DNA from: Natrinema versiforme JCM 10478
GTDB taxonomy: Archaea > Halobacteriota > Halobacteria > Halobacteriales > Natrialbaceae
Length of the DNA: 64,000 nucleotides
Direction: 5' to 3'
Assembly: GCF_000337195.1 (NCBI RefSeq)
Contig: NZ_AOID01000030.1
Location: forward strand, 1 to 64,000
Below, piece after piece: positions 43,159 to 45,937 of the stretch (positions are counted from its first letter, which is position 1; the number at the start of each line of letters is the position of its first letter). A model generated the notes under the pieces. That model worked only from the letters and a program-made list of their open reading frames with translations, did no database searches and was not told the DNA's origin. A program made the position numbers and the translations under genes.

Positions 43159-44727
43159 TTACGCTTCAACCCACGTGTTCGTCGCGGAGACGGACGTGAG
43201 CTGAACGTTCTCGTTCTCCTGCAGACTGATCTGGGAGCTGCCGGCGCTGCCGCCGTCTTCGGCGACTGCGACGGAGGTGTGCTGTTCGTTCAGGTTCTCC
43301 TGGGTGACGATCTGGGTCTGCTCGATCGCCGTGCTGGCGGTCTGTTCCGCGTCGTTCGTCTGCGTGGCGTTGCCGGCGTAGTCGTACGACGTACCGGGGG
43401 CGGCCGTGCCCGCGTTCCCGTCGACCGTGACGGTGGTACTCGAGGTCCGCGTCACGTCGTCGGAGACGTAGCCCGGACTCGCGTAGACGTTGATCGCGTC
43501 GGCGTACGCGACCTGGGCGTTGTAGTTCTGCTGGTAGGCCAGCTGGATCGCGGTGGACTCGCTGTCGTTCTGTGCGATGGCCATCGCGGTGTTCTGGAGG
43601 TTGATGTTCCGCTGTTCGACCTCTTGGCCCTGTGCCACGCCGGCGGTCGCGGTCTGCTCGCCGTCGACGTCGTCTTGCTTGTCCTTCTTGTCGGGTTCCT
43701 GGACTTCGGTTTCCGAGGAGAGGACATCGCCGCTGACGTTACCCGCGGTCGCGACGTCCATCCCGGCGGCCGACGCCATCAGGTTCGAGGCGGAGGCGCT
43801 ACCGATCTGTTCGTTGAGGTTGCTCTGGTCGGTGAACTGGATCGCCGTGGCGGTGCTGCCCTCGCCGATCGCGATGGCGACCGCACCGTCCTGTTCGTTG
43901 ACGTTTGCCTGCTCGACGTCCTGTGACTGCTCGAGCAGCGCGTCGGCGCTCTGGCCCGTACTCGAGCCGGCGCTGTGATCGCCTGTCTTGTCCTTCTTGT
44001 GACCGAATTCGCCGTCACCGAGGTAGACGTTCGAAGCGTTGGCCATGCCCTCCTGGAGGTTCTCGTTTCGCTGGTAGGACTGCTGGAGCGCGGTCGCGTC
44101 GCTGTCGTTGACCGCGAGCGCGAACGCGGTGCTCTGGTTGTTGTAGTTGACCTGTCCGACCGATTGGGACTGGCTCACACCGGCGACGGCTTCCTGCGTG
44201 ACCGTCTTGTCGCCTTTCTTGTCTTTGACAGCCCAGCCGTCGAACTGCTGGTCGCCGCCGTCGCCGACGATGATGTTGACGTCGCCGACGTTCTCGAATT
44301 GGGTCTCCGCGCTTCGCACGTCGCGGCTTTCGGCGGTGACCTCACCGCTCTGGACGTTGTCGTTCTCCTGATTCGATTCCTGAATGGCGGTCGCGTCGCC
44401 GCCGTCGATCGCGATCGACACCGCAGTTCCCTGCTCGTTGATGTTGACCTGATCGACGTCCTGGTGCTGGATGATCTCGGCGGAGGTGCCGTTCGAATCG
44501 TCGGCGTGTTCGTCGACGTACTCTTCGAGCGACTGCCCGTCGAGGTCGGCACCGAAGACGAGATACAGTTCTTCCCCGTCCTCGAGTGCGTGTATGGTTC
44601 CGGCGTCTAGTTCTCCGTCCCCACCCGCGGTGGCTGCCGGCACGCCGGCCGCGATCATCGACAGGGCAACCATACAGGCCATAAGGAGTGTCGTAGTTCG
44701 TGAGCGTCTCGTTGTATTGGAATTCAT
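43159..44727 (-). CDS. Secreted Q/N-patterned repeat protein, curli-like amyloid candidate
   Basis: The 522-residue product has a Sec signal peptide (basic MNSNTTRRSR, hydrophobic 13-30, AATA before residue 35). Five imperfect repeats (about 83-131, 179-233, 261-316, 359-413, 462-516) share the pattern QxQxVxQxNxNxQxxAxAxA, then a short acidic turn, then ATAxQxxxQxNxNxQ. Alternating Q/N/A at every second residue predicts stacked beta strands, as in curlin subunits, though the spacing differs from the curlin consensus. All ten lysines sit in three linkers (168-174, 244-247, 347-350). There is no anchor or C-terminal helix, so it is probably released. ATG 44727 is preferred over an upstream in-frame GTG. 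Confidence 0.8.
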   Translation of the reverse strand: MNSNTTRRSRTTTLLMACMVALSMIAAGVPAATAGGDGELDAGTIHALEDGEELYLVFGADLDGQSLEEYVDEHADDSNGTSAEIIQHQDVDQVNINEQGTAVSIAIDGGDATAIQESNQENDNVQSGEVTAESRDVRSAETQFENVGDVNIIVGDGGDQQFDGWAVKDKKGDKTVTQEAVAGVSQSQSVGQVNYNNQSTAFALAVNDSDATALQQSYQRNENLQEGMANASNVYLGDGEFGHKKDKTGDHSAGSSTGQSADALLEQSQDVEQANVNEQDGAVAIAIGEGSTATAIQFTDQSNLNEQIGSASASNLMASAAGMDVATAGNVSGDVLSSETEVQEPDKKDKQDDVDGEQTATAGVAQGQEVEQRNINLQNTAMAIAQNDSESTAIQLAYQQNYNAQVAYADAINVYASPGYVSDDVTRTSSTTVTVDGNAGTAAPGTSYDYAGNATQTNDAEQTASTAIEQTQIVTQENLNEQHTSVAVAEDGGSAGSSQISLQENENVQLTSVSATNTWVEA

Positions 44728-45418
44728 TGAGCGTTTGATCTGTGTCGTGATGGTCTTTCGTTTCTGAGTCTCTGCGACGCAAACCATCCTATCCCCAAGA
44801 GTACCTTTGTTATCGACAGATTGGAACGCGTATGAACCGGCCTATGGAACCGAAGGCGGCTGCTTATCGATCGAAACCGGAGGCTTCGCCGGGCCGTTAC
44901 GGAAGTACAAGCCGCGACCAAAATCGTCTTATATTTGATCCGTCCATATCCTGACGACAAATTATCAAAAGGCTCCGAACGGTCTCGATCCGATGACCGT
45001 TTCGGTAATCGAAGTCGGATATTAGCGGTTCCTAGCCGATCGGCAACCGTTTCACGGTCGATATTTCCGGGACGGTGTAGGGGAGCGGGTGGGCCTGAAA
45101 CCGCAGGCCACGCCCTCAATAGGGGCAGCGAAACGGCGACAGGTTCTGCTGACAGTCGGTGAACGATCCGCTTGCAACGGTAATCCGCCCGATCAGCCCC
45201 ACTAATGCCGTGATTCGCCTCGAAACCGTTTGCCGGGTTCAAATGGGATACTGGTATGAGTAGCGACTGGGCAACGCGCCACAGCGGGAGACCGGGAGGA
45301 GACAGCCAGTTTCGTGCCAAGCGACAGCGCTGTCGAACGAGGAGGTTCCCTCCTCGAGGAGGTCTCGTTGTGGTTGACACGCGTGGTGCCCGACTGCAAC
45401 ACGGTGACCGAATTCAAC
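44728..45418. other. Divergent region between the two secreted repeat genes
   Basis: This 691-base region separates two oppositely oriented secreted-protein genes. It holds an AT-rich patch at 44925-44970 and a GC hairpin at 45091-45109. Frames here are rich in Arg, Leu and Pro and not acidic, so I call no gene. Both promoters and possible shared control are expected inside. Confidence 0.5.
45091..45109. other. GGCCTG / CAGGCC hairpin
   Basis: GGCCTG and CAGGCC form a perfect stem with an AAACCG-type loop, in the stretch GGGCCTGAAACCGCAGGCC. Flanking GGGAGCGGG and ACGCCC may extend it imperfectly. It could be an RNA structure or a protein site. Confidence 0.3.
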
Positions 45419-45937
45419 ATGAAACGCGCACTCACGCTCGCACTGACGGTAGCACTAATCGGCGGCCTCGCATTTATGGGGGCTGCAGGAACAGCGGCGG
45501 CACATGCAGACTCTGACGCAGACTCCGACGCAGACTCCGATGTTGACGTTGATGACATCGATCAGGAGTCCTCTGCGGAGACGACCATCGGTGTCGAGCA
45601 GAGCAACAACAACGAACAGACGCAGGCCGCATCGTCCTACAGCAGCTCGGACGAGAGCTACGCTGAGACGACCGCGGTCCAGAGCCAAGAGGTCACGCAG
45701 GGCAACGACGCGAACGTCGAGGACACGACCACGACCTCGACCAACGTCGGAGTCGACTCCGATACGAGTGCTGACGCGGACTCCGATGCCAGCGACGATT
45801 ATACCGACAACTCCGAGACCGACAACTCCGAGACCGACAACTCCGGTATCACTGACGACAACCTAGCCGGAATCATCAGCGACTTCCTCGACTCCCTTGA
45901 CGACGACGGCGACGACGAGGACGATTCCACGGAGTAA
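45419..45937 (+). CDS. Small secreted acidic protein sharing the Q/N pattern
   Basis: The 172-residue product has a Sec signal peptide (MKRALTLALTVALIGGLAF..., AAA before HADSD). Mature sequence starts with a DADSDADSD repeat, then two short segments, GVEQSNNNEQTQAAS and AVQSQEVTQGNDANVE, that echo the QxQxVxQxN pattern of the divergent 522-residue protein. A Thr/Ser/Asp-rich middle with a TDNSE triplet repeat leads to a hydrophobic LAGIISDFLDSLDD helix and acidic end. It could be a minor subunit, nucleator or chaperone for that protein; this is inference. A T-rich CTTTTATTTTTCG follows at 45954-45966. Confidence 0.7.
   Translation: MKRALTLALTVALIGGLAFMGAAGTAAAHADSDADSDADSDVDVDDIDQESSAETTIGVEQSNNNEQTQAASSYSSSDESYAETTAVQSQEVTQGNDANVEDTTTTSTNVGVDSDTSADADSDASDDYTDNSETDNSETDNSGITDDNLAGIISDFLDSLDDDGDDEDDSTE

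Follow-up and report, generated by a model that had tools for sequence, protein, structure and literature searches.

The locus considered here lies in a window of 64,000 nucleotides from Natrinema versiforme JCM 10478 (NZ_AOID01000030.1, positions 1 to 64,000), where a large gene on the minus strand, termed QN5 below, stands divergently to a small gene on the plus strand. Their features are as follows, with the basis of each assignment in brackets:

43159..44727, minus strand: QN5, 522 aa, candidate main fibre subunit (ORF and orthologs)
44623..44727, minus strand: signal peptide-like N-terminus of QN5, residues 1-35 (hydrophobicity peak from residue 14, AxA-type site)
44326..44484, minus strand: repeat 1, residues 82-134 (repeat profile)
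44026..44190, minus strand: repeat 2, residues 180-234 (repeat profile)
43780..43950, minus strand: repeat 3, residues 260-316 (repeat profile)
43486..43650, minus strand: repeat 4, residues 360-414 (repeat profile)
43174..43338, minus strand: repeat 5, residues 464-518 (repeat profile)
44728..45418, no strand: divergent intergenic region of 691 bases from QN5 to the small partner (gene positions; same layout in relatives)
45419..45937, plus strand: small secreted-looking partner, candidate minor subunit (half-repeat pair QSNNNEQ and QSQEVTQGN, acidic tail)

The QN5 gene starts with the ATG at 44727 and stops at 43159-43161, and its orthologs support this start over an alternative upstream ATG at 44787. 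An AxA-type site follows the hydrophobic stretch near residue 34 and, judged solely by this signal-like N-terminus, QN5 looks secreted. Past residue 36 there is no second hydrophobic segment (the highest 19-residue Kyte-Doolittle mean is 0.97), and a PGF-CTERM C-terminus is absent from this protein and from the rest of its clade, in agreement with an earlier reading of the sequence alone, which had proposed a signal without an anchor. The mature protein contains 17.7% Q+N, 17.0% D+E and 3.1% K+R, an acidity that is expected for a haloarchaeal protein. Searches against Pfam, NCBIfam and PDB sequences returned nothing meaningful, and a literature search found no description of the family. Repeat 1 has a short conserved element on either side, at residues ~52-75 and ~148-169 (44503-44574 and 44221-44286, minus strand); the two are somewhat alike and read ELYLVFGADL..SLEEYVDEH and DVNIIVGDGGDQQFDGWAVKD, with F58, G59, G164 and W165 invariant, and match no family.

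The defining feature of QN5 is a ladder of regularly spaced glutamines and asparagines. The pattern QxQxVxQxNxNxQ occurs exactly five times, at residues 87, 186, 267, 366 and 470, just as the sequence-only reading had it; what that reading had missed is a second half-ladder in each repeat. The shorter pattern QxxxQxNxNxQ accordingly occurs ten times (residues 89, 116, 188, 215, 269, 297, 368, 395, 472 and 499), each repeat of ~55 residues comprising two half-units with one ladder apiece, 27-28 residues apart. When the mature protein was shuffled 20,000 times, the mean counts were 0.00005 for the longer and 0.0023 for the shorter pattern, and neither ever exceeded one. Across 221 distinct repeats, Q8, Q10, Q14, N16, N18, Q20, A23, A34, Q38, Q42, N44, N46 and Q48 are 90-100% conserved, such that every second residue is conserved within a half-unit, with a shift of phase between Q20 and A23, where AlphaFold models predict a strand break in several repeats. 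The ladder is the same in the terminal repeats as in those between them, the number of repeats is fixed at five in the aligned orthologs, and the linkers between them vary in sequence and length. At the 55 ladder codons, their positions taken from the window protein alone, eight of eleven ortholog comparisons showed no amino-acid change and the remaining three showed 1, 3 and 4, alongside 3-17 synonymous changes in the same codons; the 215 interleaved core codons carried 35-128 amino-acid changes in these comparisons. It is the ladder that selection preserves in QN5, which has a trait of functional amyloids, namely imperfect, strongly constrained Q/N repeats in a secreted-looking protein.

Orthologs are present in all 29 Natrinema genomes considered (28 relatives and the window's own) and in four of eight genomes from other Natrialbaceae genera in the same draw. 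In an even draw from the phylum, 15 of 393 archaeal genomes match, every one of them from Natrialbaceae, and the family was not found in any other archaeal family among those sampled. A scan with conserved peptides across 84,980 species, one genome per species, recovered 48 Natrialbaceae loci and one bacterial locus. This distribution bears on the amyloid staining of haloarchaeal biofilms that had been invoked in connection with the gene. Biofilms of Haloferax volcanii are indeed reported to stain with amyloid dyes, but the staining is not without a suggested gene, HVO_1403 having been put forward (PMC4180959); since the QN5 family was not found outside Natrialbaceae in the sample, QN5 leaves the Haloferax staining unexplained. 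A 2012 survey (PMC3521004) pointed to a single archaeal protein, not named there, that has curli-like repeats and may belong to this family. In one ortholog (G010, L021/L039) the matched region contains a TGA in frame, and the ORF begins at the residue equivalent to position 16 of the window protein; this may be a matter of start assignment or may mark a disabled copy.

The large gene is typically accompanied by one to four small ladder proteins, encoded divergently beside it and usually 0.5-0.7 kb away. By a simple filter, such proteins were found in 41 of the 54 loci with enough upstream sequence, the other 13 having none that passed; applied elsewhere, the same filter returned 0/54 upstream on the same strand, and 1/55 and 0/55 downstream. 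The small genes number three or four at some loci (L044, L054). The signal peptides of the small proteins resemble MKRALTLALTVALIGGLAFMGAAGTAAA and vary very little; after them comes either a single repeat or its halves. Several of these proteins are recognised as having a full repeat (E 1e-13 to 1e-6), and the two that were tested against shuffles scored well above them. The window's partner belongs to a group with the order of the halves swapped, in which the invariant columns are those of the ladder, Q.N.N.Q and Q.Q.V.Q.N. The profile of this group matches the window at 45557-45736, and 23 of its 24 matching genomes, among 391 searched, are from Natrialbaceae. The small partner encoded in the window gives no match to the 55-residue repeat model, and against the half-unit models only half A exceeds shuffles. 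Its acidic tail contains a perfect 15-base tandem repeat encoding TDNSE units (45803-45845). At another locus a secreted-looking small protein, roughly at the small-partner position (L041, 11749-12243), has GEDGEDASAI-type repeats, a different low-complexity repeat and not the ladder.

The side of the neighbourhood conserved in relatives consists of the small partner, LarC and CDC48. The window does contain polysaccharide-type genes (GT2, polysaccharide deacetylase, ATP-grasp, acetyltransferase/FemAB), as had been pointed out, but synteny shows that they are not kept beside the large gene in relatives, and the functional link drawn from them is not supported. In the search for a conserved gene downstream, nothing but housekeeping-type genes emerged, and these at some of the loci only; near QN5 neither an assembly gene nor a chaperone gene was identified, and there is no conserved S-layer gene among its neighbours.

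Certain relatives differ in how they would be exported or retained. Among 46 aligned orthologs, seven have an acidic linker and then a PGF-CTERM-like tail at the C-terminus, and all five tails scanned (L081, L086, L087, L090, L098) exceed the TIGR04126 cut-off; archaeosortase A is encoded in five of five genomes tested, the window's own among them. In genome G029 two copies coexist: L044, which has no anchor and three small partners, and L045, which has the anchor-type tail. Four other orthologs, forming one well-supported group, bear a twin-arginine motif at the N-terminus and look Tat-exported. Natrinema gelatinilyticum (L054/L097) has two forms of the large protein, one unanchored and one Tat-type.

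The bacterial locus belongs to a metagenome-assembled genome of Thermincola ferriacetica (JAENZX010000008.1; L099, 7989-10301), where three adjacent proteins have two 55-residue repeats each, no obvious signal peptide and an extra C-terminal region. A repeat model built from archaeal sequences only matches them with E values of 9e-33 to 4e-19; the real sequences reach 67-111 bits against 0 for reversed and at most 13 for shuffled ones, which rules out an artefact of composition. No other match was obtained among 398 genomes of the same phylum (Bacillota) or 10 of the class. The same stretch contains two YheC/D ATP-grasp genes and one PGA_cap gene. As YheC/D proteins are linked to spore coats, the Thermincola repeat proteins might possibly act in a spore layer.

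The proposal that the repeats are built for stacked strands agrees with structure prediction, which returned strand-turn-strand layers with modest confidence. AlphaFold was given full QN5 with 46 orthologs and, separately, repeats 2-4 alone. In the full model (mean pLDDT 56, pTM 0.49; repeats ~60-83, linkers <50) ten long strand segments are arranged in strand-turn-strand pairs with disordered linkers, each repeat being predicted, at that modest confidence, as a strand, a tight turn and a strand in segments of up to 28 residues. The model of repeats 2-4 (mean pLDDT 65, pTM 0.46, core ~70-87) leaves the layout unchanged. In Foldseek searches with the full model CsgA and two FapC entries took the top three places among 350,542 PDB chains, though not significantly, the match to CsgA (8c50) being weak at E 0.28; with repeats 2-4, FapC ranked first, again as a weak match (E 1.0e-3, probability 0.21), and no amyloid entry exceeded probability 0.21 or TM 0.17. 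VIA, in a listing that comprises only SufB/SufD, CsgA and FapC entries and so excludes no fold, gave FapC Z 3.4 (6.8 A, 86 residues) versus Z 3.8 for the SufB/SufD beta-helix with repeats 2-4, and SufB/SufD Z 4.8 versus CsgA Z 2.6 with the full model. A viral structure library yielded no match to the QN5 model at E 0.001 or better. Weak as they are, these structural matches cannot tell an amyloid-type stack apart from an ordinary beta-helix.

The best reading of these observations is that the QN5 family represents a new, non-curlin, amyloid-like fibre subunit with minor subunits. We consider it somewhat probable that QN5 stacks into an amyloid-like fibre outside the cell, to which the small proteins contribute as minor subunits; the polymerisation itself is what we infer. 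QN5 would be exported, and each of its repeats would fold into a strand-turn-strand layer; the layers would stack in register, with like Q and N side chains forming hydrogen-bonded ladders within and between molecules. Molecules joined end to end would give a fibre, on whose exterior the linkers would form a coat compatible with salt. The one-repeat small proteins could start, cap or anchor the fibre as minor subunits, comparable to the role of CsgB and FapB, while the PGF-CTERM relatives could be cell-bound versions or fibre bases. As archaea have one membrane, an outer-membrane exporter such as CsgG would not be needed. The fibre would likely serve in a biofilm matrix or in adhesion. The divergent small ladder proteins and the anchored relatives are the strongest support for this reading, and neither figured in the sequence-only reading. 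A wider proposal, which we advance tentatively as a possibility clearly less probable than the fibre itself, is a dedicated archaeal amyloid-fibre system independent of curli and Fap, with a five-layer main subunit, divergent one-layer minor subunits and archaeosortase-anchored bases, whose module would have been reused in Thermincola.

The main rival to the fibre reading is a secreted beta-solenoid or beta-helix that would act as a monomer or in a small assembly, as a rigid-rod matrix protein or adhesin that does not polymerise. The VIA scores, in which SufB/SufD equals or exceeds FapC and CsgA, favour such a fold; the fixed number of repeats would give a rod of defined length (FapC is likewise fixed, at three), and anchored relatives would suit a rod on the cell surface. 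However, no element was recognised that would cap the protein, its ends appear available for stacking given the ladder shared by the terminal and inner repeats, and adjoining one-repeat ladder proteins are hard to reconcile with a monomeric rod; we consider the solenoid rather unlikely, if by no means negligible. An S-layer-associated or sheath-like component, whose ladders would assemble it into a two-dimensional array anchored by the PGF-CTERM forms, could draw on those forms, on the presence of archaeosortase A and on the archaeal beta-arch sheath protein of Methanospirillum (PMC10593813), but most family members, including that of the window, are without an anchor, and neighbours without a conserved S-layer gene also make it an unlikely account.

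Lower still stands the idea that QN5 is a matrix protein and uses flat Q/N faces to bind polysaccharide or mineral surfaces, acting with the polysaccharide locus as its partner and not as a fibre: the window copy does adjoin GT2, polysaccharide deacetylase and FemAB-type genes, but the lack of conservation of that locus in relatives, and ladder residues that are non-aromatic and placed on both halves of every repeat, render it quite improbable. The likeness to curli to which the sequence-only reading had pointed could also mean a true member of that family, transferred to archaea; this would be in line with five predicted strand-turn-strand Q/N repeats as in CsgA and with the curli-like archaeal protein of the 2012 survey mentioned above. 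Against it, the curlin repeat PF07012 has no match in QN5 or in its own genome (with a positive E. coli control), CsgG (PF03783) is absent from that genome (controls positive), and hhalign of QN5 with CsgA and CsgB gives a probability of 0.1. Membership in the curli family is largely refuted by these negative results, leaving only the slightest chance for it; the same reading had also remarked that the repeat departs from the curlin consensus and may be a new class, and this fits the want of a match to the curlin model.

A 2025 review lists MspA as the only archaeal functional amyloid and HVO_1403 as an unconfirmed haloarchaeal candidate (PMC12520557). Genome editing exists in Natrinema gari J7-2 (PMC10433800); a conserved gene family with partners in an editable genus makes haloarchaeal amyloid matrix fibres directly testable. 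If the fibre reading is true, QN5 would be among the first haloarchaeal amyloid-type fibre systems with a known gene, and a cross-beta material working at near-saturated salt.

Among known systems, the amyloid-like, beta-arch protein MspA/SH of methanogens (PMC10593813, PMC12520557) resembles QN5 in being archaeal and, as QN5 would be, extracellular, but it forms a cell sheath in another lineage. With the PGF-CTERM surface proteins processed by archaeosortase A, the TIGR04126 tail is common to some QN5 orthologs, though not to the window clade. Curli share with QN5 five Q/N strand-turn-strand repeats (predicted in QN5), the lack of an anchor and the combination of major and minor ladder proteins; they differ in that the QN5 repeat is much longer and its minor proteins are encoded divergently. 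FapC, from the FapC/FapB functional amyloid of Pseudomonas, has imperfect repeats of one layer each, a conserved Asn/Gln network and variable linkers (PMC12392863). It did not appear in profile searches of PDB sequences with QN5 at E up to 10, and by sequence QN5 is neither curlin nor Fap. Furthermore, FapC has three repeats, as opposed to the five 55-residue repeats with two ladders each of the archaeal protein, and no Fap accessory genes were recognised near QN5, where the conserved neighbours are instead the small ladder proteins, LarC and CDC48. Both FapC/FapB and QN5 nevertheless combine secretion (apparent in QN5), imperfect one-layer repeats (the layers of QN5 being predicted), an Asn/Gln network, flexible linkers of variable length and a paralogous partner encoded nearby; thus, by layout, and as far as the models go, FapC is the protein that QN5 is most like.
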